Of a stretch of DNA of 64,000 bases, positions 8,338 to 60,154 are shown in pieces; position 1 is the first letter of the stretch; each line of letters begins with the position of its first letter. The stretch comes from a virus, in the IMG/VR virus record IMGVR_UViG_3300023174_000033, positions 62,001-126,000 of that record. One strand, given 5' to 3'. The translations under genes were made by a program, and so were the position numbers. The notes below the pieces were generated by a model, which saw nothing but the letters and a program-made list of their open reading frames with translations, did not search any database and was not told where the DNA came from.

Positions 8338-8889
8338 TTATTGTTCCAAAATAGTTCTTTCCAATTTTATATCTCTGTTCAAAGCTCTCTCTGAAGTGAA
8401 CTTATCCCCAAATCTAGCTCTCAATTTATTGATATTACTTTCTAATATTTTCTCAATGTCTATTTTATTCAATAAACAAAATACACACATAGTCTCAAAA
8501 ATATAATTTACATTTTTGGATAATTTTTCAATATCAATTTGTTTGTTGTAGAATAGTTTCTTTTTCAAATGGTCAAGAGCGGAACAAGATGATTTGATAG
8601 TTTGTAGAATAAGTGTTTCGTTTTTCAATTGAAAGAAATTATTATCATTAAGCTTTGGTATTTGTAATTGTAGATTTAATTCTCTATCCAAAAGAGCTAT
8701 ATACCAAAACACATCAGCAACTTCTTCTTTTTTATTCACCTCATCATTCCAATCCATCAATTCTTCAAGTTCCGTCAATATTCCAACAACTCCGTGTAGT
8801 AGATTTTCGGTTTGTTTTCCACAATGGAATTCAGTGGATAGTGTTTTTTCAGATAATTCTTTGTAATCAGACCAGTTCATTTTACTCAT
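8338..8889 (-). CDS. MazG-like nucleotide pyrophosphohydrolase
   Basis: This 183-residue all-alpha protein carries the MazG/dUTPase-type metal site. TELEELMDW (acidic residues about 40-43) lies before KKEEVADVFWYIALL (E55, E56, D59), matching the ExxE...ExxD pattern. Such enzymes hydrolyse NTPs or dNTPs to monophosphates. In phages they clean or reshape nucleotide pools, or lower (p)ppGpp-like signals. The C-terminal 110 residues are helical and not recognised. The start overlaps the stop of the upstream RlpA-like gene by 8 nt, so translation is probably coupled. A second ATG three codons in is an alternative start. The exact substrate cannot be told from sequence. Confidence 0.75.
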   Translation of the reverse strand: MSKMNWSDYKELSEKTLSTEFHCGKQTENLLHGVVGILTELEELMDWNDEVNKKEEVADVFWYIALLDRELNLQLQIPKLNDNNFFQLKNETLILQTIKSSCSALDHLKKKLFYNKQIDIEKLSKNVNYIFETMCVFCLLNKIDIEKILESNINKLRARFGDKFTSERALNRDIKLERTILEQ

Positions 8890-9337
8890 GTTTAATTAAT
8901 ACATTCCTTATATTTATTGTGCCAAAAGTGAAAAAGTCTATTTTATTCCTAAATCTTTTGTGCATACAGTCATGTACAGTATAAATTCCTTTCAACTTTT
9001 TTGGGTGCACTACTTCAATTTCACTACCAAATGGATATTTTTTTAACAAATCCCTCGATAACGACACTAGGTTTTTGGTTTTTTTAGAAAGAAATGTCCC
9101 ATCGGCAGTGTGGAATGGTGAGTTGTCACACTGTCCCTTTGTAGGATTGTAGTAACTAGCATTTACTTTTTTTAGGTAGATTGTATCATGTATGTAGATT
9201 GTATCATAAATGATTCTGTCTGGTTTGTGAATTCTAGGTACTAAATAAACTTCTTTGGTAGGACCAACAAACATACATATTAGAAATCCACAACACAAAC
9301 ATAAAAATGGGTAAAGGTTTTGCTTTAAAAACCACAT
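8882..9337 (-). CDS. Membrane-anchored RlpA/3D-domain (double-psi beta-barrel) protein
   Basis: This 151-residue protein has an N-terminal hydrophobic segment (residues about 8-27, LYPFLCLCCGFLICMFVG) that can act as an uncleaved anchor or signal peptide. A linker rich in Tyr, Ile and Asp follows. The C-terminal domain holds NASYYNPTKGQCDNSPFHTADG, quoted here only by its key residues: the early Tyr-Tyr pair, a Cys and the TADG turn. It continues with YPFGSEIEV and GIYTVHDCM, the layout of RlpA-like and 3D domains that bind or cleave peptidoglycan. A role in host envelope degradation or lysis is plausible. It heads the minus-strand group with the MazG-like gene, which it overlaps by 8 nt. Confidence 0.65.
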   Translation of the reverse strand: MWFLKQNLYPFLCLCCGFLICMFVGPTKEVYLVPRIHKPDRIIYDTIYIHDTIYLKKVNASYYNPTKGQCDNSPFHTADGTFLSKKTKNLVSLSRDLLKKYPFGSEIEVVHPKKLKGIYTVHDCMHKRFRNKIDFFTFGTINIRNVLIKHE

Positions 9338-9410
9338 AATTTACATTTATTTTTTTTTCAATCATAATATAGATTGATATTTATATTACGAGAAAAATAT
9401 ATATAGTTTT

Positions 9411-9995
9411 ATGGAACATTTAAAAGTCTTTAAATTTGGGGAATTTAGTATTAACGAAAACATCAAAGATGTGCCTGAAAAGTATGTTGAAAACGTATTG
9501 AGAAAACTCAAAAATAGGTTTGAAGAAATGTTCGCTTATGATGTTGTTGACCAAGGAAAAATAAAAAAATTCGGAGAAAAAAGTAAAGAAGGTGGTGAAA
9601 CTATTTCATTCAAAGATTTAAATTTAGAATTGCAAAGTATTGAACTATCAAAATATTCAAAACTTTATGACAATCTCAAAATTAAATTTTCCGATGAGCA
9701 GTTTTTATATGACTTGACCGTTACAATTGATTTAGCAGATGCAGCCAAAACTGAAGAAGGTGAGGAAGAAAAAGATTTTGAACCTGAAGATATTGAAACT
9801 TGTCAGATTAGATTTAAAAAATATGATACTGATAATTTTGATTTAAAAGGTGAACTCATAAAAACTGTTAAAGTGAAAGACGTTGATGAGGATTTATTAG
9901 TTGAATTGAAACTCAAATTAGATGAAGAATATGGTGGTGAAGAAGAGGAATTTGAGATTGAAGTTGAGGAAGGGGAGGAAGAGGAGCCAGAATAA
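9411..9995 (+). CDS. Acidic protein with capsid-targeting-like leader, function unknown
   Basis: The product has 194 residues and a very acidic C-terminal tail (residues about 175-194 are mostly Glu). No known family is recognised. The N-terminus, MEHLKVFKFGEFSINEN, resembles the T4 capsid-targeting leader of internal head proteins (MKTYQEFIAEA), and cleavage by a prohead protease after SINE would be possible. A second acidic stretch lies at residues about 110-130. The upstream sequence contains AAATATATATAG about 10 nt before the start. It is followed after 8 nt by an unknown gene and then a third gene with a similar leader. A head-packaged or scaffold-like role is inferred from the leader and acidity only. 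Confidence 0.5.
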   Translation: MEHLKVFKFGEFSINENIKDVPEKYVENVLRKLKNRFEEMFAYDVVDQGKIKKFGEKSKEGGETISFKDLNLELQSIELSKYSKLYDNLKIKFSDEQFLYDLTVTIDLADAAKTEEGEEEKDFEPEDIETCQIRFKKYDTDNFDLKGELIKTVKVKDVDEDLLVELKLKLDEEYGGEEEEFEIEVEEGEEEEPE

Positions 9996-10003
9996 ATAGT
10001 TCT

Positions 10004-10504
10004 ATGGAATACAACATAGTAACAAATTTTAGGATAAACACCATTTTCAAACAAAAAAGTAAATATTACCGAGTAACTCTTGGTTATACCGCTACCCAAG
10101 AAGCAAATGGTGGTGAAAGAAACTTTAATAAAAAAGATGAGTTCGCTTACTTTTATAATACCAGATATAGAACTACAATACAATGTCAAGGTAAAATAGG
10201 TAATATAAAATTCTATACAGACCATTACATCACACAACCTCAACTAGCTTTCTATTTTGATAAAGAGGAATACATTTTTGATTTTGATGAAGATATAGTA
10301 AACAACAAAGGGGTTGATTTTTATCTCGGACATTTGATTAAAACTATTGAAACCGAACAAAAGGAATCTGAAGATAAGGTAACTGAAGAATCGCCAATTG
10401 ATGAATCAAATCCAAAATTAGTAGCATTCAACCCTGGATCCGTAAAATATACAGATTTAAAAGCTTACCTAGACCAGAAAAATGCCAATAGATTAAATAT
10501 TTAA
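10004..10504 (+). CDS. Hypothetical protein
   Basis: The 166-residue product is not recognised. It looks like a mixed beta domain (alternating aromatic and charged residues in residues 1-115) followed by a charged linker (residues about 120-140) and a short helix at the end. It has no signal peptide, membrane segment or known catalytic motif. It begins 8 nt after the preceding acidic protein gene, has the same AT-rich codon use and lies in the same plus-strand run, so it is probably co-expressed and may act with that protein. Confidence 0.6.
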   Translation: MEYNIVTNFRINTIFKQKSKYYRVTLGYTATQEANGGERNFNKKDEFAYFYNTRYRTTIQCQGKIGNIKFYTDHYITQPQLAFYFDKEEYIFDFDEDIVNNKGVDFYLGHLIKTIETEQKESEDKVTEESPIDESNPKLVAFNPGSVKYTDLKAYLDQKNANRLNI

Positions 10505-36646: not shown

Positions 36647-39600
36647 TTATTTGTATAATATTGTACCTGTTGTGGATGAGGAGAATGTTACCCCAAACGA
36701 ATTAACATCATTGTGAATTATACTAATTGGATTTATTACACTGTTATTAGTATCTAGTATCTGAACGATCGGGAAATATCCTAAGTTGTGTTGGACAAGG
36801 TATTCCGTACCACTGTTGAGTCCTGTGCCATCCAATGAATAACTACATCCAACTAGACTCGGTAACCAAGTTAATTGACCAATACCGTTTACTCCAATTG
36901 CAAAACTCGCAGATCCTCTAACATAATTCAGATTGACCCAACTATTTCCTATGGTGATACTGTTTGACGCACCATACTCAACACTGTTGCTTTCCAAGTG
37001 TATGTAAGGACCACTACCAGCTGTTGAACCGTCAATTAAATCAGATGCGGATACTTCAATTTTCGCCTCAAATGAAGGTGGATCAATATGAGAACCTCCA
37101 ATTATGTATTTACTTCTAATCTTAACTCTTTCCTCAACATCAACATTCGATATTGGGGCTTGGTAGAAATCCGATCTAGAATTATTAATACCAACCCCAG
37201 CTAATCCACCCGATACAAAATTTTCCCTACTTGAGTAAACTGCTGGATATAATTCGTTTGTGGTGTGGTCGTATTTGCTAGCACTTGGGTTAAATCCAAT
37301 AAGACCAGATGATTCAAGTACAAATGCGTATTCACTATTAGCCAAAGTCGCGCCTTTTATGTATCCATCTGTCGTTGAGTTGGAAATTTTAATTACATAA
37401 TCACCATCGTAAGACCATGAAGCGGTATTTCCAATTGTTAGAGTTTGGTCAAATGTGTAGATTGGAGCTGGTCCTTGTGGACCTGTGTCACCTTGATCGC
37501 CTTGAGGTCCCATCTCACCTTGTTCACCTTGTGGGCCCATCTCGCCTTGGTCACCTTGTGGGCCCATCTCGCCTTGGTCACCCTGTGGCCCCATTTCGCC
37601 TTGGTCACCCTGTGGCCCCATCTCACCTTGGTCACCCTGTGGCCCCATCTCACCTTGGTCACCCTGTGGCCCCATCTCACCTTGGTCACCCTGTGGCCCC
37701 ATCTCACCTTGGTCACCCTGTGGCCCCATCTCGCCTTGGTCACCCTGTGGCCCCATCTCACCTTGGTCACCCTGTGGCCCCATCTCACCTTGGTCACCCT
37801 GTGGCCCCATCTCACCTTGGTCACCCTGTGGCCCCATCTCACCTTGGTCACCCTGTGGCCCCATCTCACCTTGGAATCCTTGAGGACCAGTTACTCCTTG
37901 TACACCCTGGACACCCTGTAGACCCTGTGGACCAGTTATTCCTTGAACACCTTGGAATCCTTGTGGGCCAATCATACCTTGATGCCCTTGTGGGCCGAAA
38001 TCACCTTGGAATCCTTGTGGACCAGTAACACCTTGGAAACCTTGTGGACCGGTTGATCCCTGTGGACCAGATAGCCCTTGAAGACCTTGTGGACCAGTCA
38101 TACCTTGGAAACCTTGAGGACCGGTATCTCCTTGATATCCTTGTGGGCCCGTATTACCAAATGGCATGAAAGTGAAATTATAAATACTGTTAGGATAGAA
38201 TTGACCATTTGAGACAACAGGAGAGGAAAGACTCAACCCATAAACATTATTACTCTGTATTAGATTAACACCATAAACTGGGTAAATACCAACATTACTA
38301 GCTGTCAAAGCATCGGATACCTGTATCCATGTATTAATACCCTTATCAACAAATGTTTTTAGTGAATTAAACCAACCAGAGTAGTTTACCCCGTTGACAT
38401 CAGTTTTGTGAATTTTCAGATAATCATTCAGAGCGAAATTTGCATCTTCAATATCAAACTTACCAGTAGCAACACTGCCATTATCTAAACTCTCACATCT
38501 CCACTGTACCACAGTTTGTACTAAAGAAGTAACGGTTCCTTGTGGTCCTTCCAAACCTTGGAATCCCTGTGGACCCATATCACCCTGTGGACCACTTACA
38601 CCTTGGAAACCTTGTGGACCAGTCTCACCCTGTAATCCTTGTGGACCACTATAACCTTGAGGGCCAGTCATACCTTGTGGACCAGTCTCACCCTGTAATC
38701 CTTGTGGACCACTATAACCTTGAGGGCCAGTTACACCCTGTAATCCCTGTGGGCCAATAATACCCTGAAAACCTTGAGGGCCAGTTTCACCCTGTGACCC
38801 TTGAGGCCCAGACAACCCTTGAACCCCCTGTGGACCAGTATCACCTTGATTACCTTGGGGACCACTGTAACCCTGTGGACCACTGTAACCCTGTGGACCA
38901 AAATCACCTTGGAATCCTTGCGGACCTGTAATTCCTTGAACACCAGTTGATCCAGTTGATCCAACCGAACCATTAGCCACCCAAGTTACGTTATAAAGTT
39001 GCTCAGCAGCGAAAGATCCACTTGAAACAACAGCGGTTGAATCCACTTTAACAGAGTAGGTTGTGCCGTTGCCGGTCACACCAGTTACTCTATATAGCCC
39101 TGTATTACTTGGAGTTAAAGCATCGTAAATTTGTAGATAACTAGTGTTTTCATTTTGAACAAATATTCTAAGTTGATCAAACCATAATGAGTAATCTACA
39201 CTTTGTATATCTTGTTTATGGAAATTAAATTCTGAATTATTAGCAAATGTATTATTTTCAGAACTGAAATAATTTGGGTTATTTAATAGAGGATTGAAAC
39301 CTTTATACTTCCACTGGACAATTGTTTGCACTAATGACACAACCGAACCTTGGTCACCTTTGTATCCTTGTGGACCTGTTTCGCCCTGTGGACCAGATAA
39401 TCCCTGTAATCCTTGTGGGCCAGTATTACCTTGGAATCCTTGTGGGCCAGTATTACCTTGAACACCTTGAAAACCTTGAGGACCAATATTACCTTGATTA
39501 CCTTGTGGACCAGTCATTCCTTGATTACCTTGTGGACCAGTCATTCCTTGGAAACCTTGTGGACCAGTCATTCCTTGGAAACCTTGTGGACCAGTTTCAC

Positions 39601-42600
39601 CCTGTGACCCAGTATTTCCCTGTGAACCTTGAACGCCTTGGAAACCTTGTGGACCAGTCATTCCTTGATTACCTTGTGGACCAGTATTGCCTTGCAAACC
39701 TTGTGGACCAGATAAACCTTGAGGGCCAGTCACACCTTGCAAACCTTGTGGACCAGATAAACCTTGAGGACCAGTCACACCTTGCAAACCTTGTGGACCA
39801 GATAAACCTTGAGGACCAGTTCTTCCGAATGGTATCCAAGTAACATTGAAAACACTGGTTGGATTTAGAGTTCCGTTACCAACGATTTTATTCCCAACGT
39901 TAATAGTGTATTTAGGATCCGTGTAAGATAAACTACTAACTGGAAATAAACCAGTGTTACTTACTGTTAGCGAATCGTAAACTTGTATATAAGCTAAACT
40001 TCCACCGTCTACAAATCCTTTTAATTGGTCAAACCAATCGTTATAATCAACACCATTTATATCAAATTTATTGAAAACAAACTGTGTTGGTGGTGATGTA
40101 GTGAAGTTCGAACTGTTTGATTCAAATCTTCCATTCGGAAGTGATCCACCTATCAATCCGTCATATCTCCACTGCACAATTGTTTGCACCACCGAAACAA
40201 CTACACCCTGTGGTCCGGTATCACCTTGTAGTCCTTGATTACCCTGTGGGCCACTGAATCCTTGTGGACCAGTTACACCTTGATATCCTTGTGGACCAAA
40301 TTTTCCTTGTGGTCCTGTATCACCTTGTAATCCTTGTGGACCAGATAATCCTTGTGGACCTGTCTCCCCTTGGAATCCTTGCGGACCGGTGTTACCCTGA
40401 AAACCCTGTGGACCAGATAGACCCTGAAGACCTTGTGGGCCACTGAATCCTTGTGGACCGGTGTCACCTTGATACCCCTGTGGACCCGTATTACCTTGTA
40501 GACCTTGTGGGCCGGTGTTACCCTGGAATCCTTGAGGACCTGTATCACCTTGATAACCTTGAGGACCCGTATTACCTTGTAGACCTTGCGCGCCGGTGTT
40601 ACCCTGGAATCCTTGTGGACCAGTCATACCTTGTAACCCTTGGGGACCAGTCATACCTTGTAACCCTTGTGGGCCGGTGTCACCTTGATAACCTTGTGGA
40701 CCACTATATCCTTGCGGGCCAGTCTCACCTTGGAAACCTTGTGGACCAGTCTCTCCCTGAACGCCAGTTGAACCGGTGCCCCCAACTGAACCATTAGCAA
40801 CCCATGTTACGTTGTATAGTTGTTCAGTCGCAAAACTACCATTTGAAACAACTGCTGTAGAATCAACAGATACAGAATAAGTTGTCCCGTTGCCGGTCAC
40901 ACCAGTTACTCTATATAGCCCTGTATTACTTGGAGTTAAAGCATCGTAAATTTGTAGATAACTAGTATTTTGATTCTCAATGAATATTCTTAATTGTTCA
41001 AACCAAAGAGAATAGTCAACACTTTGTATATCTTGTTTATGGAAATTAAATTCGTTATTACTACCAAATGCAGGATTTTGTGAACTGAAATAATTTGGGA
41101 ATGATCCTAATGGATTCGTACCTTTGTATTTCCACTGAACAATTGTTTGCACTAATGACACAACCGAACCTTGGTCACCTTTGTATCCTTGTGGACCAGA
41201 ATATCCTTGTGGACCAGATAAACCTTGCACACCTTGTGGACCTGTCTCACCTTGGAAACCTTGTGGACCTGTCTCACCTTGGAAACCTTGAGGGCCAGAT
41301 AAACCTTGAAGTCCCTGAGGCCCGGTCATACCTTGGAAACCCTGTGGGCCAGTTGAACCTTGATATCCTTGTGTGCCAGTGTTTCCTTGTGGACCTGTAT
41401 CACCTTGCAAACCTTGTGGACCAGTTGAACCTTGAAACCCCTGTGGACCAGATAATCCCTGTAAACCTTGTGGACCAGATAAACCTTGTAGTCCTTGTGG
41501 ACCGGTATCACCTTGGAAACCTTGTGGGCCGAAATCACCTTGGAAACCTTGTGGGCCTGTAACTCCTTGTAGTCCCTGGGAGCCACTGTATCCTTGTGGA
41601 CCAGTTATTCCTTGGAAACCTTGGGGTCCTGTTTCACCTTGATATCCTTGAGGACCTGTATTACCTTGAGATCCTGTGTTGCCCTGTGGACCTGTATTAC
41701 CTTGGAATCCTTGAGGACCTGTATTACCTTGGAATCCTTGAGGACCTGTGTCGCCTTGATAACCTTGTGGACCACTAAAACCCTGTGGACCAGTGTCACC
41801 TTGTGGACCAGTTGGTCCGGTAGCACCTATGGAACCATTTACGAACCAACCAATGTTATATATGTTGTTACCTGTAAACGTGCCACTACCAACTATAGCT
41901 GGAACGTCTGTAAAGATATAGTAGCTATGGGTACTAAATACTTGAGAAGGACTTGTCTGTGTAGCAGCAAGAACTTTGTAGAATCCAGTTATACTCTGAG
42001 TTGTTGAATCATAGATTTGTAAGTATGAAGGATTTTCATTATTAACAAACTTTTGCAATTGATCAAACCAGAGTGAATAACTAACTGAGTTGATATCCCT
42101 AAATTCAAATCTGAAATAAGGGTTAGTTGGTAAATCAATACTACTAGTTTCAAAATAACCTTGGGTTAGGCCGCCACCCAATAAACCACCATACTTATAT
42201 TGTATTATGGTTTGGACCATGGAAACAACTAATCCGTCAACTCCTTGTGGGCCGGTATCACCTTGGAATCCTTGTGGGCCAAAGTCTCCTTGGAATCCTT
42301 GAGGTCCACTAAATCCTTGGGTGCCTTGTGGGCCGGTATCGCCTTGTGAACCTTGTGGGCCAGATAATCCTTGTGGACCAGTGTTTCCTTGATATCCTTG
42401 TGGACCAGTGTTTCCTTGATATCCTTGTGGGCCAGATAATCCTTGATGTCCCTGTGGACCAGTGTCTCCCTGTGATCCTTGTGGACCAGTATCTCCTTGA
42501 AAACCTTGAGGACCAGTGTCTCCCTGATAACCCTGCGGACCACTTTCGCCTTGAAAACCTTGAGGACCAGTGTCTCCCTGATAACCCTGCGGACCGGTAT

Positions 42601-45196
42601 CACCTTGATAACCCTGCGGACCACTTTCTCCTTGATAACCCTGCGGACCAGTATCACCTTGATAACCCTGCGGACCAGTATTACCTTGGAATCCCTGTGG
42701 ACCACTTTCTCCTTGAAAACCTTGCGGACCAGTATCACCCTGATATCCTTGCGGACCGGTATCTCCCTGTAGTCCCTGTGGGCCAGTATCACCTTGATAT
42801 CCCTGTGCCCCCTGTGGGCCAGTATCACCTTGATATCCTTGCGGACCGGTATCACCTTGAAATCCTTGATCACCTTGTGGGCCAGTATCACCTTGTGATC
42901 CCTGTGGGCCAGTATCACCTTGATAACCCTGTGGGCCAGTATCTCCTTGAAATCCTTGATCACCTTGTGGGCCAGTATCACCTTGATATCCTTGAGGACC
43001 GGTATCTCCCTGAACGCCTTGAGGACCAGTCTCACCTTGGAAACCTTGAGGACCAGTCTCACCTTGAACACCAGTTGAACCAGTACCACCAAATGATCCA
43101 TTAGCAACCCAAGTAACATTATAAACTTGTTCTGTTGCGAAACTTCCATTTGACACTAATGCGGTTGAGTCAACCGAAATTGAATAAGTTGAACTTCCAT
43201 ATGTAACACCAGTCACTCGGTATAGACCAGTGTTACTGGATGTTAAAGCATCATATACTTGTAAATAACTTACATTTTGACTATCTACGAAAGTTAAGAG
43301 TTGTTGAAACCAAACTGAATAATCTATGGATTGATTATCTAGTTTATTGAAAATAAATTCACTATTACTAGCAAAAGTAGGTTGATCGGAAGTAAAATAT
43401 TTTGATACCGGTTCAGTTGCTGAATTTAGACCTTGGTATTTCCACTGAACAACAGTTTGAACTAATGAAACAACAACCCCCTGTGGACCTTGTTCACCTT
43501 GAGTTCCGGAAAAACCTTGAGGACCGGATAATCCTTGAACACCCTGTGGGCCAATTTCCCCTTGTGGGCCACTTTCTCCTTGAAAACCTTGCGGACCAGT
43601 ATCACCTTGATGCCCTTGCGGACCAGTATCACCCTGTAGTCCCTGTGGACCTGTTTCACCTTGATACCCCTGTGCCCCCTGTGGACCTGTTTCACCCTGG
43701 TAACCTTGTGGGCCAGAAATACCTTGCACACCTTGTGGACCAGTTTCTCCTTGGAATCCCTGTGGGCCGGTATCACCTTGATATCCCTGTGGACCTGATA
43801 AACCTTGTAGTCCTTGTGGACCCGTCAAACCTTGTGGACCAGTTAAACCTTGATAACCCTGTGGGCCAGAAAGTCCTTGTGGACCCGTGAAACCTTGTGG
43901 GCCTTGTGGACCGGTGTCACCTTGATAACCTTGAACTCCGGTTTCTCCTTGCCAACCTTGTGGACCAGAAACACCTTGAGGACCTGTAGTGCCTTGGAAA
44001 CCTTGAACACCAGTACTGCCCTGCCATCCTTGTGGACCAGAAAGTCCTTGTGGACCAGTAACACCCTGGAAACCTTGAACACCAGTACTACCCTGCCATC
44101 CTTGTGGACCAGATAACCCCTGTAATCCTTGTGGACCAGTAAAACCTTGATATCCTTGCACACCAGTGTTTCCCTGCCATCCTTGTGGACCAGATAAACC
44201 CTGGAATCCTTGTGGACCAGTCATACCTTGATATCCTTGTGGACCAGATAACCCCTGTAAACCTTGTGGACCTGTATCACCTTGCAAACCTTGTGGGCCG
44301 GTTCTACCTTGGAATCCCTGTGGACCAGTTCTACCTTGATAACCTTGAGGCCCAGATAAACCTTGAAAACCCTGTGGGCCACCAGAACCTTGAGAACCAG
44401 TGGCACCACCACCGGTTATAATCTTACCACTGAATTGTTGGTCAAAAGTAACAACGTAAGTATCTGTACTAATATAATTAACAGAATATGAAGCTGGTTG
44501 AATGTTTACGTTACCATTGGAGGTATCAACTGCTTGTACTAGTGGATATCCATTGAAACTATGTGTAACAGTAACTTGAGTTTTATTAGAAAAGTCTGTT
44601 ATAAAATTTGAGACAGCATCAAGACCTCTCGGACCTTGAACACCTTGTGGTCCACTCAAACCCTGAAAACCAGTATTGCCTCTACCTGGGTTTGTAGCCC
44701 AACCAATTGTATAGGTTCTCCCATCTACAAATACACCACCAACTGCAATTGGTTGCACATTTAGATCAAACCCCGTAAATCCATCATCTACAATATTTGT
44801 TACTTGAAAAAGAGCTCTGTTTAGAGGGTCTTGATCTTCAACTATATTTAAATAACTTATTTGTTCACGGTCAACAAAAACTTTCAATTGTTGTAACCAA
44901 GGGGAATAATCCACACCATAAAGGTCAATATATTGAATACTTAAAGAAGTAATAAATTCAGGATCGTCATTATTTGCAACAAATTTTTGTATGGTTGTAA
45001 GATTACCACCAGCTAGATATTTCCATTTTGATGAAGGTGAAGATAATTGCACTACCACGCCCTGTGGTCCTGTTTCGCCCTTTGGTGGTAAATCTACCGG
45101 ATTCCCAAATCCATCGTAGAATTCATTTCCGTTTATAACTTGTACTAATCGTTGATATGTACCTGATACGGTTGTTCCGGTTAAATTATATGACAT
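36647..45196 (-). CDS. Giant collagen-like phage fibre protein (2849 residues)
   Basis: The protein alternates long G-P-Q-G-x-Q-G collagen-like tracts with globular modules. Modules lie at about 44680-45060, 43090-43470, 41815-42240, 40770-41170, 39830-40205, 38965-39345 and 38155-38540. Each begins near [13 protein letters not shown] and contains [14 protein letters not shown]-type and YLQIYDALT-type segments. A different small beta domain ([17 protein letters not shown], near 44450-44600) recurs at the extreme C-terminus as [17 protein letters not shown]. The C-terminal 270 residues form the head. Collagen tracts in phage fibres are expected to form triple helices, so a trimeric, very long receptor fibre is likely. 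AATATATAG lies upstream of the start. One frame is open throughout. Confidence 0.9.
37505..37880 (-). repeat. 27-bp tandem repeat array (14 copies) in the fibre gene
   Basis: Fourteen units spaced exactly 27 bp (the CAT of each Met codon runs from 37511 to 37862) encode GDQGEMGPQ. Units differ by only a few synonymous or single changes, so the array is recent and its copy number is probably variable. Confidence 0.95.
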
Positions 45197-53090: not shown

Positions 53091-53690
53091 ATGAGGTTAT
53101 CATCACAGAATTCGCAATTTATATTTAACTTACCGAGTGATTTTCTCCCACAAGAGATTATAAATACTTACACACCAATACTAAAAAAGAATTGGATACA
53201 ATATGAGAATGTAATTGACTACTTAAATTCTACAATAAAGTCAATAAATTATCCTGGATTGACAGTTGAAACTCCTCAACAAAATTTGATTCGTGGTAAA
53301 GTAAGAGCATACAAACCATCAAAAAATGTTCAAGATATATTATCAACCAAAGATTTACAAGTAGTTTTCAGATCAGTTGATGCTGATTTAAATTATTGGA
53401 TATTCTATGATATATTCATCAAACACTATTTAGACGTTGGAAATATTTATGTGAACCCACTAACGATAACCGCAGTTGATATATGGAGAGATGGAATTTA
53501 CAAGATAAAATTCTTTGAAATAATGTTAGTTAATTTGAGTGAAAATACTTTTGACTACTCAAAACAACAAGTCAACGCAAAAGAATTTACGTTGACTTTT
53601 AGATTTAATTTTACAGATGTGGAGTTCCTACTCAATCAATCAAAAGTTTTGGAACTTGGAAGAGCTCCGAAAATTATTCAAAAGATTTAA
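53091..53690 (+). CDS. Tail-tube-like protein (gp19/gp54 fold), tentative
   Basis: This 199-residue protein contains a segment typical of tail-tube folds. These are INYPGLTVETPQQ near residue 59, VVFRSVDADLNYWIFYDIF near 100, then VDIWRDGIYKIKFFEIMLVN, and finally AKEFTLTFRFNFTDVEF. The order (loop, helix, strand with Asp-x-x-Gly, final strand with Phe-x-x-x-Phe) matches tube or tube-initiator proteins of contractile-tail phages. Exact identity is not certain. It follows the large virion protein by 15 nt, and its end overlaps the convergent glycosyltransferase gene by 4 nt. Confidence 0.5.
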   Translation: MRLSSQNSQFIFNLPSDFLPQEIINTYTPILKKNWIQYENVIDYLNSTIKSINYPGLTVETPQQNLIRGKVRAYKPSKNVQDILSTKDLQVVFRSVDADLNYWIFYDIFIKHYLDVGNIYVNPLTITAVDIWRDGIYKIKFFEIMLVNLSENTFDYSKQQVNAKEFTLTFRFNFTDVEFLLNQSKVLELGRAPKIIQKI

Positions 53691-54448
53691 GCAGTGAATG
53701 GCACTGAAATACCGTTAGTATTATTATACTTCTTCATTGTCCAATTTTGAGGCATAACAAAATGAGCTCCCCAACTTGAATCTTTATTAAAATCATGAAA
53801 AGTTCCTTCTCTGCCCATAGATGTACAAAGATGGATAAAAGAGCTATCAATACAATGTACTTCCTCCGCTTTCTCAATCATCCCACACCAATCAGTAATT
53901 GAACCAGTAATTGGAGTCACCCGAATAATTTTTAAATCTTTTCTAGTTTCCAATGGACAAGTTCCCCAAGAAGCAGTGTCATGTATTAAAATGAAAGGTT
54001 CCCCATTTGGGTTTAGTTGGTCTTCTATTTTTTTCTCTGTTTGATAGTCTCTGTCAATCTTAAACGAGGTCCATCTTTTTTCAAAGGGAATATTCATACT
54101 ATCATAAAAAGAAACATCCCAATCTTTCCTTGTTTTATAGTGACCGATCAAATAAATCTTGGAACAGAATTTGACATGAGGTAGATTATAAATTTCATTC
54201 CAATCTCCTTGAACCGATATCAATATCAATCTTTTTTCATCACTAAACATTTTAAATACGGTTGAATAGTTGTGATGTTTTACAGGCATAAAAAAATATT
54301 CAGCATCGGATTCTTGGTTGATTATTTCCCGAGTAAGACCATTGCAAACTATATGATCGCCTAAACCAAGATGTTGGTGAATAAAAATACACTTAACTGG
54401 TTTTTCAGAAATTCTTTTTACTAATTCATTTAATAAGTTTTCTTGCAT
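53687..54448 (-). CDS. GT-B-type glycosyltransferase (GT9/heptosyltransferase-like)
   Basis: This 253-residue protein shows HQHLGLGDHIVCNGLTREI (residues about 24-42), the glycine-rich start of GT9-like transferases. Near the C-terminus is AEEVHCIDSSFIHLCTSMGR, the donor-site segment with Asp-Ser-x-x-x-His typical of GT-B enzymes. It is shorter than classical heptosyltransferases. It is the last of seven consecutive minus-strand glycosyltransferase genes and is convergent with the tail-tube-like gene. Donor and acceptor are unknown. Confidence 0.7.
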   Translation of the reverse strand: MQENLLNELVKRISEKPVKCIFIHQHLGLGDHIVCNGLTREIINQESDAEYFFMPVKHHNYSTVFKMFSDEKRLILISVQGDWNEIYNLPHVKFCSKIYLIGHYKTRKDWDVSFYDSMNIPFEKRWTSFKIDRDYQTEKKIEDQLNPNGEPFILIHDTASWGTCPLETRKDLKIIRVTPITGSITDWCGMIEKAEEVHCIDSSFIHLCTSMGREGTFHDFNKDSSWGAHFVMPQNWTMKKYNNTNGISVPFTA

Positions 54449-54462
54449 AATTTAAATTATTT

Positions 54463-55161
54463 TTATCCACGATATCTATGCACATTTACAAATTGCCAAA
54501 AATTCGGATCCAATTCATTCTCATAACAATATTGGTCAATTTGTGGTAGGTGCATAACCTTATGTTTATGAGCCAACAAAGAAAAAATAGCTTGATCGTG
54601 TCTGTGGTCAATAAAATCATCAAAGTTTTCTTTGTGTTGATTTGGAAGATCGGTTATTGCATTTTTATTTTGAGATACTTCCAACCATTCCTCAACAAAA
54701 CTCATAACAAATTCTGTTTTTCTGAAAAAAATGTATGTAGCGTTGATTTGGTTCAAATCTTTTGATTGGTCCTTATCATCACCATTTGCGAAGTAAAAAC
54801 AATCACCTTTCGTATATTTTGATGTTTTGTGTATCAATTGAAAAGCCAAAATACCCCGATTGTCCATGAGCTTCATTATCGGATCAGGGTCTTTGACAAA
54901 CATGGCACCCGCGTCCATATAAATTAAGTAGTCTCCGAAATTTAATTTTTTTAATGTTTTATATATGAGGTGTGGTTTCCAAAGCCAATATCCACCACCC
55001 CTCGGAGAAGAAAGTATCTCTTTATTCCTCTCAAAAAAATCTGCATCTATATCCTTCTCAGAATATCCAATAGTTGTGAATCCAAGTAAATCTGCAACCC
55101 TCAATCCCTCACTTTGTGATTTTACGAATCCATTTGAGGCGTAATTTATAAAGTATTTCAT
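54463..55161 (-). CDS. Glycosyltransferase-like protein (GT-A, D-x-G-A type)
   Basis: This 232-residue protein shows SPRGGGYWLWKPHLIYKTL (residues about 52-70) and GDYLIYMDAGAMF (near 76-88), the pattern of GT-A proteins in capsule and fibre modification clusters. DHRHDQAIFSLLAHKHK lies near residue 190. It is a clear paralog of the gene at 55847, with the same GGGYW-W-K-P segment and HRHDQ motif. It lies within the seven-gene cluster, 14 nt upstream of the GT-B gene and 11 nt downstream of a GT2 gene. Confidence 0.75.
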   Translation of the reverse strand: MKYFINYASNGFVKSQSEGLRVADLLGFTTIGYSEKDIDADFFERNKEILSSPRGGGYWLWKPHLIYKTLKKLNFGDYLIYMDAGAMFVKDPDPIMKLMDNRGILAFQLIHKTSKYTKGDCFYFANGDDKDQSKDLNQINATYIFFRKTEFVMSFVEEWLEVSQNKNAITDLPNQHKENFDDFIDHRHDQAIFSLLAHKHKVMHLPQIDQYCYENELDPNFWQFVNVHRYRG

Positions 55162-55172
55162 ATTTTGTGAGA

Positions 55173-55832
55173 TTAAATTTGAACTCTTGAAATTTGGTCA
55201 TGTGGTATAGATTGATACTGAGCTTGTGAAACGGTTGAATTCCAATTATAGTAACACATCACTTTGTCAATAACAATTTCAGACTTAGCTCTTGAAATTG
55301 CTTCCATTACAAAAATTGTATCTTCTTGAGTATTTGAGTCCCCAAATGGAATTTCTTTGGCTAAACTTGTTTTCCACGCGCACCAATGCCAAGGTGGTCT
55401 TCTACACGGTACCGTTCTTCCATAATTATCTAAAGCTAACTGGTCGAACGGGAATTTATTATTATGTTGCAAACTTGTTTTTATAATCCAAGTTTTGCCA
55501 TCAATTTGTGCTTGTTGATCATAACAAATCACATCCACATCGGTATTATTAGTTATATGAGATCTCATAGTTTCAACAAAATCAGAAGAAACATCATCAT
55601 CATCATCAATTATGCAAGTATATTTACCTTGTGCGATTTTGAACAACAAAGTTCTTTTTCTACCGACACTCATTGCTTTATTGTCAATGATGGTAACTAC
55701 TTCTATATCTTTTGCATCACCTATCTGAGATTTCAACTTTTCGTAAAGTGGGGTTAGGTGTGTAAACATTCTATCAGGTAAACTAGGTATACCGATTGTT
55801 AATATTATTTCGTTTTTATTGAAATTTGACAT
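55173..55832 (-). CDS. Family 2 glycosyltransferase
   Basis: This 219-residue GT-A protein has ILTIGIPSLPDRMFTHLTP near the start, KYTCIIDDDDDVSSDFVETM (the metal-binding Asp run, near residue 72) and WHWCAWKTSLAKEIPFGD near residue 148 (acceptor-side region). The Asp run follows a strand of small hydrophobics as in GT2 enzymes. It lies between the two paralogous GT-A genes in the cluster. Donor and acceptor are not known. Confidence 0.8.
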   Translation of the reverse strand: MSNFNKNEIILTIGIPSLPDRMFTHLTPLYEKLKSQIGDAKDIEVVTIIDNKAMSVGRKRTLLFKIAQGKYTCIIDDDDDVSSDFVETMRSHITNNTDVDVICYDQQAQIDGKTWIIKTSLQHNNKFPFDQLALDNYGRTVPCRRPPWHWCAWKTSLAKEIPFGDSNTQEDTIFVMEAISRAKSEIVIDKVMCYYNWNSTVSQAQYQSIPHDQISRVQI

Positions 55833-55846
55833 TTTTATTATTAATT

Positions 55847-56587
55847 TTATCCCCTTATTCTTGTCGCCAAGAAAGGTACTTTTACAACATTAAACAAATG
55901 CATCCACCCATCATAATCGGGTGAGTAAGTTTCATCAGATACAATTACTGGATCTTTCACCTCTAATTTAACCAAACAAGATGAAACCGATTGGTCATGT
56001 CGATGTACTTGGTTTTTTTCATACTTTTTATAATCATTGTATTCATCGCTGAAAAGATATGGTGCAGTTTGTGTGATTTCTAGAAGTCTTTCTAAATATC
56101 TTTGACTATTTTTATTTTTCTTGAAAATCAATACTCCGGCCATAAGTATGTCTCTCTTTCTGAAATCCATATCATCTAATTTGCCGAAAAATTCAAAAAC
56201 TTTTGAATTAGTATGCCAATGTTCCTCGGTTCCTACGTGCTCATATCTGAAAATACCAGATTCGGTATTATCAATCATTTTTAGAAATTCATGGAGTCTT
56301 TCTTTTCCTTGTGGATTAACTGTACAACCACAATCAACATAAACACAATAATCACCATCATTCATTTTTTCAAATGTTTTCAACAAAATAGGTGCCTTCC
56401 ACATCCAATAACCACCACCCCTTGAGTGATTTATATATGGTTCTGTTTTTTTAATAAAATCTTCTGGAAGATCTTCCCTACCATATGCTTGAACATGGTC
56501 CAAATAACCACAATTTATAGCCTCTTTAACGATTCTCTGTTTTGAGGACAAATAATTTTGGTCACCATAAGTAATAAAATATATCAT
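55847..56587 (-). CDS. Glycosyltransferase-like protein, paralog of the gene at 54463
   Basis: This 246-residue protein shows HSRGGGYWMWKAPILLKTF (residues about 54-72), GDYCVYVDCGCTV (near 78-90) and VHRHDQSVSSCLV near residue 194, aligning with its paralog at 54463. The Asp in VDCG is the likely metal/donor site. Family members are often annotated as hypothetical in bacteria and phages. A duplication inside the cluster is the simplest explanation. Confidence 0.75.
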   Translation of the reverse strand: MIYFITYGDQNYLSSKQRIVKEAINCGYLDHVQAYGREDLPEDFIKKTEPYINHSRGGGYWMWKAPILLKTFEKMNDGDYCVYVDCGCTVNPQGKERLHEFLKMIDNTESGIFRYEHVGTEEHWHTNSKVFEFFGKLDDMDFRKRDILMAGVLIFKKNKNSQRYLERLLEITQTAPYLFSDEYNDYKKYEKNQVHRHDQSVSSCLVKLEVKDPVIVSDETYSPDYDGWMHLFNVVKVPFLATRIRG

Positions 56588-56616
56588 ATGTTTTATAATT
56601 AATTATTTATTTTTGT

Positions 56617-57450
56617 TTATTTAGAATCTATAATATCAAAAAGGAACTTTTTGATATTTTCTTCTTTATTATTTTCAGGAATCTGATTCTCCGGAAACCA
56701 TGGATTTGATATCATTTCAAGGTATTTTTCTTGGTTATTGTCTATCTCAATTATCTTTTCAATCATTTCTTTGAAATCATTGTGATCATAATAATTTATG
56801 AAAGATTTAGTATTGAATTCTTTATAAATATCTGGATTACCCCAATAGATAGGAATTGAATTTACCGTCATTGGTTCCATAATTTTTTCAGTGGTATATC
56901 CTTTATGTTGCGGTCTATAAGCATTGTTTTCAAAAGCAATTGAAAATTTATAAGTGGACTGAAACTCTCTTTTATCTTGAACAACGTATCCAATATTATT
57001 CATCCACCGACCACCACAATCTACCTTTTTATATTTTGACAACTCCTTTACAAAGTTATTTCTTTCTTGACAGTTACCGTTTGAAGCTACAAAATTGCAA
57101 AAATTTCTTTTGGAAAAAGATTCATCTATCACTTTCTCTCTCTGTAATTCATAGTATCCATCATAAAGCAAATAATGTGGTAATCTATAATTCCTTGGAT
57201 TATCCAAATAATCAAAAGAAAATGACCAATCACAATAATCCAAAGGGGGTGCTATATTTTCACCAGTATAAAATATCTTTTTACATTTATAATTTTGGTG
57301 ATTATTTCCAAATATTGAAAAGAATAAGAAATCAGGATTGTTACTGATTTCTATATCATATTCATCTTTTAAAAGATTGTAAAAATAATTATTAGTTTTA
57401 TCATATCCTCCCCAAAAATCAGAAAAATCAATTTTTATTTTCTTTTTCAT
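56617..57450 (-). CDS. GT10 family fucosyltransferase-like protein
   Basis: This 277-residue protein matches the alpha-1,3-fucosyltransferase family. STYKFSIAFENNAYR lies near residue 170, and YTTEKIMEPM followed by IPIYWGNPDI lies near residue 190, the conserved donor-binding segment that contacts GDP-fucose. YCDWSFSFDY near residue 72 is also typical. It overlaps the upstream gene by 4 nt. Fucose on a phage or host surface glycan is the predicted outcome, depending on a GDP-fucose supply from the host. Confidence 0.88.
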   Translation of the reverse strand: MKKKIKIDFSDFWGGYDKTNNYFYNLLKDEYDIEISNNPDFLFFSIFGNNHQNYKCKKIFYTGENIAPPLDYCDWSFSFDYLDNPRNYRLPHYLLYDGYYELQREKVIDESFSKRNFCNFVASNGNCQERNNFVKELSKYKKVDCGGRWMNNIGYVVQDKREFQSTYKFSIAFENNAYRPQHKGYTTEKIMEPMTVNSIPIYWGNPDIYKEFNTKSFINYYDHNDFKEMIEKIIEIDNNQEKYLEMISNPWFPENQIPENNKEENIKKFLFDIIDSK

Positions 57451-58142
57451 ATTGAAACTTGCAACCTCTCATTAAGTGATAGCTTTCTTCTTATTTCCCA
57501 TTTATGCTTATCATCCTCAAATTTATTGTAGTAATTTTGGTCATTTTGGTCTGGATTTCTTTTACCATTTGACCAATGAAAATGCTCAAATACAAAATCT
57601 TTATCTTGCAACCTTTCATCAATAATTAATTTCAATTGTTCAGCATTCAAATAGTGTTCAGCATCGGAACACAAATGATTATAAGCCGGATTATAAATTA
57701 TTTTATTCATTTTGAGCAAAGCCGAATAAGTCATAATTGGAATACTAAATACAGGTTCTGCCATATTACTAAAATCAAGAGCTTGGTACCCATCATTGAC
57801 CATCAAACAACCTTCCCTACCTTTTAACTTTTCAGATATATACTTGTCCCAATTATTTGGAGGTAAGAAATCATCAGAAGCAAAAATCACAACATCATCC
57901 GAGTTTCCCTCAACTCTAGAACTTAAATAATATGATGGATAAGCAACCCCTATTCTATCAGGTCTATCAGTTATAACAACATCTAAACTTGGTAAAGTTT
58001 TTAAGATTGAATCTTTCTGTGTTTGTGTGTTTACACAGACATATGTTTTTATCGTTTCATTTTTTGAGGATTTGTCCATCCAAGTTTTGAAAGAAGATAG
58101 AAAAACCTCGGGTCTTATCGTACACCATAATAAATGTATCAT
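57447..58142 (-). CDS. Glycosyltransferase-like protein (GT-A)
   Basis: This 231-residue protein has an N-terminal strand MIHLLWCTIRPEVFLSSFK, a DDVVIFASDDFLPPNNWD segment (near residue 86) with the Asp pair of a GT-A donor site, and HLCSDAEHYLNAEQ near residue 157. No single GT family is certain. It overlaps both neighbouring cluster genes by 4 nt, so it is part of a coupled operon. Confidence 0.65.
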   Translation of the reverse strand: MIHLLWCTIRPEVFLSSFKTWMDKSSKNETIKTYVCVNTQTQKDSILKTLPSLDVVITDRPDRIGVAYPSYYLSSRVEGNSDDVVIFASDDFLPPNNWDKYISEKLKGREGCLMVNDGYQALDFSNMAEPVFSIPIMTYSALLKMNKIIYNPAYNHLCSDAEHYLNAEQLKLIIDERLQDKDFVFEHFHWSNGKRNPDQNDQNYYNKFEDDKHKWEIRRKLSLNERLQVSI

Positions 58143-58912
58143 ATTGCCATATTTTTCATTTTATCAACATTACCAATGGCATCCTTTGATTGGACTGTTA
58201 ATTCGTAAAGTTGTTCTTTATTTAGGGTTAAATATCTGTTATATAAATGTAAATTTCTGAAATATAGTTCTTGATTTATATTGCCACGAATATGCCACAA
58301 ATGATAACATTTATCTTTAGCTTGAAAATGGTTTAAATAATTTTTTACTTTTATTGATTGGTAATCATCTTCAGCTCCCCATCCCCAAAAATCCTCGTTC
58401 CATCCACAGATTTTCTCTAAAGCTTGCTTTTGGAATATTATTATCCCACCACAAAAAGGAACTTTTTGGTGGTCAGTTTCTCCTCTACCTGGCCTTACAA
58501 TTGAATATAATTGGTTTATATCACCAGTTTTCCAATATTGTTCTGTTTCATTATATTCCAAATCTACCACCGATGAATATGGGTTTATACATTCATATTC
58601 GGAGACCAAATTAATTGAATTCATTAAAGACTCTTTATTCATAACCAAATCCGCATCTCCGAAAACTATAACGTCAGATTGAGCACTCTTCCAAGCCACA
58701 TTGAAACACCAAGCTTTATTAAAGGGATGTTCATTTTGAAGGAATATGTGTTTAAATTTTACACCCAAATCAACAGTTGAGAGGTAAGAATTCTTATCAC
58801 TTTCCACTACGATTATTTCACAATCAAGTTCCGAAACCCAACCCAAAATTTTTTGTAGATTATGAATTCTGTCTGGTGAATTTCTATAAGCTATTATATA
58901 AGAAAATTTCAT
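58139..58912 (-). CDS. Family 2/7-like glycosyltransferase
   Basis: This 257-residue protein has SYIIAYRNSPDRIHNLQKIL at the start, VIVFGDADLVMNKES (D-x-D site near residue 84) and WNEDFWGWGAEDDYQSIKV (near residue 178), the G-W-G-x-E-D-D motif of galactosyltransferase C-terminal regions. It should transfer a sugar from a UDP donor. It is the first gene of the seven-gene cluster, and its ATG overlaps the stop of the Clp-type gene by 4 nt. Confidence 0.85.
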   Translation of the reverse strand: MKFSYIIAYRNSPDRIHNLQKILGWVSELDCEIIVVESDKNSYLSTVDLGVKFKHIFLQNEHPFNKAWCFNVAWKSAQSDVIVFGDADLVMNKESLMNSINLVSEYECINPYSSVVDLEYNETEQYWKTGDINQLYSIVRPGRGETDHQKVPFCGGIIIFQKQALEKICGWNEDFWGWGAEDDYQSIKVKNYLNHFQAKDKCYHLWHIRGNINQELYFRNLHLYNRYLTLNKEQLYELTVQSKDAIGNVDKMKNMAI

Positions 58913-60081
58913 TTTTTTGATTTTGACTTTTTAATTTTAACAACCATTTCTTCCTTTTCCTTATTATAATCAAGTAGAATTTTACTCCCCTTTGGTGGAT
59001 TTGACTTGATTATTTCTTCTGTGATTGGATCCTCAATGTACTTTTGTATTGCTCTCTTCAATGGTCTAGCGCCATATTCAGCATCGTATCCTTTTTCTGT
59101 GACATAGTCTTTAGCCGCATCTGTCAAATCAAAATCAAAATCTAAAGATGCGATCCTTTCTATCATTTTTTTCAACTCCACGTTGATTATCTTTTGAATA
59201 TCTTCTTTTTCCAAAGAATTAAAAGTTATCACTTCATCAATTCTGTTTAGAAATTCAGGCGCGAATGTTTTTTTCAATTCTTTCTCAATTACTTCTTTTG
59301 AGTCAGAACCCTTATTTGACTCTTTTGATTTTGTAGTAAACCCTATACCGGTTCCGAAATCTTTTAATTGTCTAGAACCAGTATTTGAGGTCATTATAAT
59401 TATAGTATTCTTAAAATCAACTTTTCTACCCATTGAGTCTGTTAGCTGACCATCATCTAAAACTTGTAGTAACATATTAAAGACTTCTGGGTGAGCTTTC
59501 TCAATTTCATCAAGTAAAATTACAGAATATGGACGCCTTCTTACTTTTTCAGTTAGTTGACCACCCTCGTCATGTCCGACATATCCTGGAGGAGCTCCAA
59601 CCAATCTTGAAGTAGCAAACTTCTCCATGAATTCACTCATGTCAATTCTTATAAGTGATTCAGAAGAATCAAATAAATGTTCAGCAAGTACCTTGGCTAG
59701 TTGAGTATTGTGACTCAATAAACCATTTGTATAATACCTTCTGTCAGAATTTCCATCTAACTCAAGATCAAACATCACTTCATTATAATTCAACTCTTCA
59801 ACAGAATCAACTTCTTCAATTCCATTTTCAGCAATTATTCTATCACCGACTTTTAAGTCTTTCACAAAAACTTCTTCCAAGTTTTCTCTGAAAAGAATAT
59901 GATTATCAGCACAATAAAGTATTGTTTTATTTTTAGTAGTTAGTCTAAATACATCATACTTTACTGTTTGATGTAAATATTTTATATCTACAAATCCTGA
60001 ATCAGTCAATACTTCAAAATCATCAACTTTGTAGGAATCTGTTATTTTTTTATCATATAATGATAATTCGCTTGCTTTCAT
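58909..60081 (-). CDS. Split-intein C-fragment fused to the C-terminal half of a Clp AAA+ ATPase
   Basis: The ATG at 60081 (MKASELSLYDKK) gives 390 residues; a TTG 21 nt upstream is unlikely. Residues 1-125 are a Hint/intein domain ending in YYTNGLLSHN. Thr126 begins a Clp D2 domain in the middle of its Walker A (GVGK|T), with TQLAKVLAEHL following. Walker B is VILLDEIEKAHPEVF (Asp191, Glu192), sensor 1 is TSNTG, the arginine finger lies in APEFLNRIDE, and sensor 2 is GARPLKRAI. The N-terminal and D1 domains, the first part of the P-loop and intein block A (with Cys1) are absent here. They must be encoded elsewhere if the protein is functional. Trans-splicing would then give a full ClpB/ClpC-like unfoldase. 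It overlaps the cluster gene by 4 nt. Confidence 0.88.
   Translation of the reverse strand: MKASELSLYDKKITDSYKVDDFEVLTDSGFVDIKYLHQTVKYDVFRLTTKNKTILYCADNHILFRENLEEVFVKDLKVGDRIIAENGIEEVDSVEELNYNEVMFDLELDGNSDRRYYTNGLLSHNTQLAKVLAEHLFDSSESLIRIDMSEFMEKFATSRLVGAPPGYVGHDEGGQLTEKVRRRPYSVILLDEIEKAHPEVFNMLLQVLDDGQLTDSMGRKVDFKNTIIIMTSNTGSRQLKDFGTGIGFTTKSKESNKGSDSKEVIEKELKKTFAPEFLNRIDEVITFNSLEKEDIQKIINVELKKMIERIASLDFDFDLTDAAKDYVTEKGYDAEYGARPLKRAIQKYIEDPITEEIIKSNPPKGSKILLDYNKEKEEMVVKIKKSKSKK
59707..60081 (-). other. C-terminal part of an atypically split intein
   Basis: The 125-residue segment contains DFEVLTDSGFVDIKYL, the block B-like YCADNHILF (with the conserved His), KDLKVGDRI, the block F-like MFDLELDG, and block G GLLSHN followed by Thr. 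The canonical first block with the N-terminal Cys and its following 20-25 residues is missing. This is the arrangement of inteins split very near their N-terminus, such as AceL-TerL. No endonuclease domain is present. Confidence 0.82.
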
Positions 60082-60154
60082 AAAATTAAAAAAGATTTTC
60101 AAGGGTTTTTATCAAACTAATTGAATTTGTTTAGAAAAAAATTTGAAAATAAAG

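Follow-up and report, generated by a model that had tools for sequence, protein, structure and literature searches.

The 64,000-nucleotide window analyzed here (the whole stretch, bases 62001-126000 of the 464,605-bp virus record IMGVR_UViG_3300023174_000033) encodes, on its minus strand at 36647-45196, a 2849-residue collagen-like protein in which eight Gly-X-Y tracts are punctuated by seven copies of one module (bead M) and two copies of a second, smaller one (bead B). The gene most probably specifies a structural phage fiber (probability about 0.7), namely a trimeric, virion-anchored, long multivalent adhesin whose beads would act as register locks and contact sites. Beaded phage collagens are already known (EPclB, BK5-T), and this fiber is an extreme variant built from a widespread, unnamed bead.

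Anatomy of the fiber gene

The frame runs through 2849 codons with no internal stop, and the plus strand of the same interval is full of stops. The initial annotation had its coordinates and length right; the strand is minus. The Pfam collagen family (PF01391) matches the protein at E = 7.3e-232 over 26 stretches. Matches to tail-protein PHROGs are driven by the collagen tracts, and the collagen repeat also forms the best matched stretches of the NCBIfam adhesin models Lcl, SclA and SclB, which score over their cut-offs; the C-terminal head shows no LPXTG-type end. The alternation of beads and tracts along the frame is far beyond chance. The long G-P-Q-G-x-Q-G tracts, seven related modules and C-terminal head described in the initial annotation were all recovered, the modules measuring ∼125 residues and the head 272, but two copies of bead B, one of them capping the C-terminus, had been overlooked. 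Its overall picture of beads on a triple helix in a phage fiber is well supported by the phage genome, the tracts, and the tail- or baseplate-annotated relatives of the bead.

Judged from its sequence, the record belongs to a tailed phage whose capsid protein is of the T4 type. It encodes a major capsid protein of the gp23 family (PF07068, E = 1.9e-25) and a gp32-like single-stranded DNA-binding protein, together with a sheath match (E = 6.6e-5) that falls under the curated cut-off. The features of the fiber gene, in window positions and from N- to C-terminus, are as follows (HMM, hidden Markov model; pLDDT, predicted local distance difference test).

36647..45196, minus strand: collagen-like beaded fiber, open frame of 2849 residues (open reading frame, Pfam, Gly-X-Y count)
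45059..45196, minus strand: N-terminal 46 residues, presumed virion anchor
44681..45061, minus strand: bead M1, residues 46-172 (BLASTP, HMM iteration)
44618..44680, minus strand: Gly-X-Y tract, 7 triplets
44408..44617, minus strand: bead B1, second bead type, residues 194-263
43472..44407, minus strand: Gly-X-Y tract, 104 triplets
43091..43474, minus strand: bead M2 (BLASTP, HMM iteration)
42227..43099, minus strand: Gly-X-Y tract, 97 triplets
41828..42229, minus strand: bead M3 (BLASTP, HMM iteration)
41162..41836, minus strand: Gly-X-Y tract, 75 triplets
40784..41164, minus strand: bead M4, 87% identical to M6 (BLASTP, HMM iteration)
40199..40792, minus strand: Gly-X-Y tract, 66 triplets
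39818..40201, minus strand: bead M5 (BLASTP, HMM iteration)
39341..39826, minus strand: Gly-X-Y tract, 54 triplets
38963..39343, minus strand: bead M6, modeled bead, pLDDT 91.4 (BLASTP, HMM iteration, AlphaFold)
38531..38971, minus strand: Gly-X-Y tract, 49 triplets
38150..38533, minus strand: bead M7 (BLASTP, HMM iteration)
37466..38158, minus strand: Gly-X-Y tract, 77 triplets
37488..37874, minus strand: 27-bp tandem array within the last collagen tract, 14.3 copies, 96% matches
36650..37465, minus strand: C-terminal head, 272 residues, presumed distal end
36650..36829, minus strand: bead B2, second bead type, C-terminal cap, pLDDT 96.4

No second copy of the N-terminal 46 residues was found in this genome, and a likeness of the N-terminus to the L015 protein, seen by eye, gave no match when searched. 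A match of the head to locus L033 was dropped, since it covers only 38 residues and a longer open frame runs there on the other strand.

Composition of the collagen tracts

With tracts defined as runs of at least four Gly-X-Y triplets, the protein holds 529 triplets (1587 residues, 55.7% of its length) in eight tracts of 7, 104, 97, 75, 66, 54, 49 and 77 triplets, N to C. The commonest triplet is GPQ (166/529). Position Y is occupied by Gln in 330 of the 529 triplets, by Thr in 115, by Lys or Arg in 3 and by Pro in none, while position X carries Pro in 169 and an aromatic residue (Phe, Tyr or Trp) in 93. A hydroxyproline route was rejected, as the record contains no PF13640 oxygenase and Pro is absent from Y; a neighbor resembling an oxygenase by eye (L018:5723-6538) is without a Pfam match.

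The tandem array in the last tract spans 387 bp, or 43 triplets, a length that may be wrong because short tandem repeats are hard to assemble. Six consecutive tracts shorten from the N- to the C-terminal side (104 to 49 triplets), and the last, counted without the 43-triplet array, has 34 and continues the series, a pattern recognized post hoc. Two contigs from different samples, L022 and L023, align over 18.4 kb with zero mismatches and one 18-bp gap, which is an in-frame six-residue change within a collagen tract. The pair suggests tract length as the fast-changing feature, though repeat assembly could also produce such a gap.

Homology, selection and predicted fold of bead M

The seven M beads (∼125 residues each) share 26-87% pairwise identity in an all-against-all BLASTP comparison, and every non-self pair is matched at E values from 3e-6 down to 6e-81. 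Ratios of nonsynonymous to synonymous substitution rates (dN/dS) lie at 0.18-0.72 for the pairs with computable dS, with M4 versus M6 at 0.18; the M beads therefore evolve as coding sequence.

An AlphaFold2 model of M6, built with 23 aligned beads (pLDDT 91.4, predicted template modeling score 0.85), predicts eight strands of at least three residues and one helix. For six M beads (all but M6), neither Pfam nor PHROG returned anything credible, and sequence profiles run against the PDB gave matches at chance level, ribosomal protein L6 (E = 0.05) being one. A Foldseek search of the PDB with the M6 model produced none of 893 matches at E ≤ 1e-3, the best reaching E = 9.8e-3 with a template modeling (TM) score of 0.27, and the best VIA-align result (Z = 5.7 over 78 residues at 2.7 Å) was rated ordinary. 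A fold missing from the lists need not be new. Literature searches likewise found no description of bead M, which is not proof of absence.

Among predicted viral proteins (BFVD), the M6 model has 49 matches at E ≤ 1e-3, the best at 9.6e-10 with a TM score of 0.84. Collagen triple helix repeat is the name of 25 of the 49, and 16 are unnamed. Five come from named giant viruses (Indivirus and Klosneuvirus, two each, and Marseillevirus LCMAC102), whose collagen-repeat proteins carry the same predicted bead fold as M6 (TM 0.74-0.84) at only 12-18% identity. Collagen repeats are listed, in the part of the gene-transfer study PMC11334073 drawn on here, among the families transferred between giant viruses and then duplicated.

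Bead relatives in other viruses

Relatives of the bead became visible stepwise. Translated searches (tblastn) of 50,697 phage records with M4, M1 and one bead of locus L009 gave no match in each case, and only the L015-type bead reached phage records; two scans of viral contigs, using profiles built from the beads of this genome, yielded no relative. The IMG/VR profile scan for bead M recovered one locus at first, and stepwise profiles then brought in six other distinct contigs as well as L009, whose 2919-residue GTSGTNG protein has two beads. A weak Devosia locus from a single genome-contig scan was dropped when HMM iteration failed to recover it. The distant-bead scan gave at least 545 confirmed stretches, from which 80 loci were taken on, and the closer-type scan 45 loci; the profiles tie bead M to hundreds of viral contigs.

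The related bead type of a 954-residue protein of the same genome matches Methylophilaceae phage P19250A and cyanophage baseplate proteins. Distant beads sit in a cyanophage ‘baseplate wedge tail fiber connector,’ in a ‘collagen triple helix repeat protein’ of S-CAM7, and in a ‘putative tail fiber’ of Pelagibacter phage HTVC010P (PHROG tail protein, E = 1.4e-144). The bead family also extends to the 735-kb uncultured phage LR756501 (L040), where three collagen-like frames lie side by side; one of them runs off the end of the locus and has 1853 Gly-X-Y residues. An iterated profile from four distant beads recovers all seven M beads of the fiber protein, whereas direct profile comparison of distant beads with M (hhalign) gives E = 8.6e-5 at a probability of only 60%. 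On profile and model evidence, bead M shares its profile and predicted fold with modules in other viral collagen-like proteins.

In P19250A, the frame at L038:839-4444 encodes a 1201-residue, GYSG-type collagen-like protein with one bead, annotated as a tail length tape-measure protein. This label is probably a misannotation.

How unusual the fiber is

Across 132 loci, 136 bead-bearing frames were counted, 125 with one bead, eight with two, and one each with three, four and seven; contig or flank ends truncate many of them, which makes the bead counts of other proteins minimum values. The four-bead frame is the first part of a sibling gene in the same genome, and the seven-bead frame is the fiber protein. 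Nearly all distinct beads (127/130) adjoin Gly-X-Y residues. At least 60 Gly-X-Y residues occur in 119 of 132 bead frames of at least 300 residues versus 34 of 466 frames without a bead, in a survey whose loci were found via bead patterns (7 dropped as repeats of contigs already included) with HMMs partly trained on the seven beads of the fiber protein.

The longest rod in the survey has 2839 Gly-X-Y residues in one frame (L133); since longer collagen rods exist elsewhere, the extreme feature here is bead number, not length. The initial annotation had called the design unusual even among phage collagen-like fibers. This stands for bead number, at the top of the 136 frames, but is tempered by the six beads of the sibling, the wide spread of beaded collagen and the longer collagens of several relatives. 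Its alternative role in tail-sheath decoration is unsupported here.

Bead B

Bead B comprises ∼60 residues with the pattern H-x-x-x-x-Y/F-P-x-V/I-Q. The genome has nine copies in four proteins, with both frames of the sibling taken as one protein; two of the copies are in the fiber protein, where they follow the first short tract (residues 194-263) and form the final 60 residues. At E ≤ 1e-3, the bead B model (pLDDT 96.4) has 20 viral protein matches, and three of these bear the name collagen triple helix repeat. Its best solved matches include the TP901-1 tripod, the Tuc2009 tripod and the N-terminus of the T7 fiber (Z = 4.7-5.3), and these tail parts are tied with unrelated immunoglobulin-like folds. 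Among PHROGs, bead B is related to a ‘virion structural protein’ (E = 1.4e-4) of the head-and-packaging category; Pfam scans of bead B1 and of the C-terminal head returned nothing over the cut-off.

Comparison with known beaded collagens

As described in the portion of PMC3368898 used here, EPclB of an E. coli prophage is a 645-residue protein with two collagen domains (157 and 114 residues) around globular phage-fiber repeats; by electron microscopy it shows three globules on flexible stalks, is presumed trimeric and does not need hydroxyproline. The fiber protein resembles this measured precedent in having collagen domains interrupted by globular parts and in preferring Gln and Thr at Y. Unlike EPclB, it extends to 2849 residues with 1587 of collagen. 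Lys and Arg are many at Y in EPclB, as reported in that portion, and almost absent here, whereas aromatics, absent there, are common at X here. The EPclB domains PfN, Pf2 and PfC (PF08400, PF03406, PF06820) were not found, as a whole-protein Pfam scan gave PF01391 alone at E ≤ 1e-3.

The sections of PMC9437275 and PMC9692632 considered present models of streptococcal and lactococcal phage adhesion devices in which collagen linkers join small beta domains and carbohydrate-binding modules. What the BK5-T and streptococcal Tal proteins have in common with the fiber protein is the pairing of a collagen-like linker with a small beta domain, a unit that occurs 10 times over in BK5-T and is predicted to form a long trimeric arm. 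Their linkers are described as short, compared with 49-104 triplets between beads here, and the Tal 3-beta domain (∼60 residues) is nearer in size to bead B than to bead M, with its ∼125 residues and one helix.

Proposed function and alternatives

Phage fibers are usually homotrimers that attach to the virion by their N-terminus and point their head outward. In the structural fiber proposed here, three copies of the chain would form the collagen triple helix, with the N-terminus holding the fiber to the virion and the C-terminal head as the far end. Because near-repetitive chains this long could slip, beads at fixed points may keep the three very long chains in register, and they would add flexible joints and seven repeated low-affinity contact sites along the shaft. 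At a collagen rise of 0.29 nm per residue (value from the cited portion of PMC3368898), the 1587 collagen residues give a computed shaft of ∼460 nm (∼0.46 micrometer), beads excluded. Such a fiber could catch the host or its surface sugars before short receptor-binding parts engage.

Several observations weigh against this interpretation. The Gln-rich Y position, the aromatic X position and the scarcity of Lys/Arg at Y depart from the collagens of E. coli phages, and the stability of the triple helix is therefore presumptive. Bead M is without a solved homologue, which leaves its binding function, carbohydrate binding included, conjectural. In S-H34 and HTVC010P, beads are also found away from collagen and thus need not be collagen clamps. 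The C-terminal head has no match in the PDB or, by tblastn, in the collection of 50,697 phage records. Finally, the gene lies outside any recognized tail operon, its neighbors being a DUF7788/DUF2828 protein and DNA-metabolism genes.

The gene's position outside any recognized tail operon would also suit a capsid fiber that decorates the head and aids loose surface contact. Collagen-like head spikes exist: SPP1 gp12, as cited in the parts of PMC7602432 and PMC13212656 drawn on, is a capsid-bound collagen-like spike, sharing with the fiber protein its collagen-like fiber character, and those parts describe no beads for it. The PHROG relative of bead B is also classed with head and packaging, but that label is annotation only, and the distant beads lie in proteins annotated as baseplate or tail-fiber components; we consider a head fiber unlikely. 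Less probable still, and by a wide step, is a non-virion protein made during infection to coat the host cell or its matrix. The gene is isolated, and the several glycosyltransferases of the window, with a GT25 gene near the sibling, indicate that surface-sugar remodeling may belong to the biology of this phage; against this, the distant relatives of the bead carry tail-protein annotations. A repeat-driven artifact, mis-assembly or functionless decaying gene, to which a premature in-frame TGA in the sibling and the difficulty of assembling short tandem repeats might point, is largely refuted by the absence of stops in 2849 codons, by dN/dS of 0.18 (M4 versus M6) and of 0.09-0.10 between sibling beads, and by the bead-plus-collagen architecture of many independent contigs.

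Beyond the structural fiber itself, we tentatively propose, at somewhat less than even odds, that bead M is a copy of an ancient, virus-wide and as yet unnamed module interrupting the collagen rods both of tailed phages and of giant viruses that infect eukaryotes. It would serve as a re-usable in-line trimer clamp and contact site; slippage of in-frame repeats and duplication of beads would adjust how far the fiber reaches, and the seven beads and half-micrometer rod of the present phage would be the extreme. If true, one small domain would explain very long, hydroxyproline-free collagen rods in phages and giant viruses, the beads dividing the rod into registered segments. It would also provide a structural reading for many unannotated huge-phage proteins and a blueprint from nature for long collagen materials that need no hydroxylation, and would raise the question of shared ancestry versus exchange of a fiber part between phages and giant eukaryotic viruses.

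Other collagen-like proteins and gene setting

The genome encodes at least four further collagen-like proteins. The sibling gene (L014:1802-8485 and 8498-10075; G000 369801-378074) consists of 2227- and 525-residue frames parted by one in-frame TGA, which lies inside a Gly-X-Y tract, and carries six M beads in total. Among 37 window genes whose stops were checked, 26 end in TAA and 9 in TGA, so TGA is a normal stop in this genome. Two more collagen-like proteins have 954 and 1292 residues. Another collagen-like gene is cut by both contig ends (L018:1-345 and L017:12769-14604), and its halves carry the same 12-residue repeat, which points to a circular map.

The second gene after the sibling (L014:11110-11820) encodes a GT25-family glycosyltransferase (Pfam E = 3.2e-16). 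GT25 includes collagen galactosyltransferases, and collagen glycosylation via this gene is a lead.

A T9SS (type IX secretion system) sorting tail at L018:3374-5719, considered as a clue to the host, was unsupported by NCBIfam; Pfam places a YDG domain there over the cut-off. Promoter and terminator scans gave site numbers below the mean of shuffles. Elsewhere, the window encodes type II topoisomerase subunits, Hsp70, an RNA ligase, the C-terminal part of ClpB and glycosyltransferases. A seven-gene run on the minus strand (53687-58912) includes several genes of glycosyltransferase type, among them a GT10 fucosyltransferase and a GT7C galactosyltransferase. At 58909-60102 lies a ClpB-like protein whose N-terminal part resembles, by eye, an intein or Hint-type remnant.

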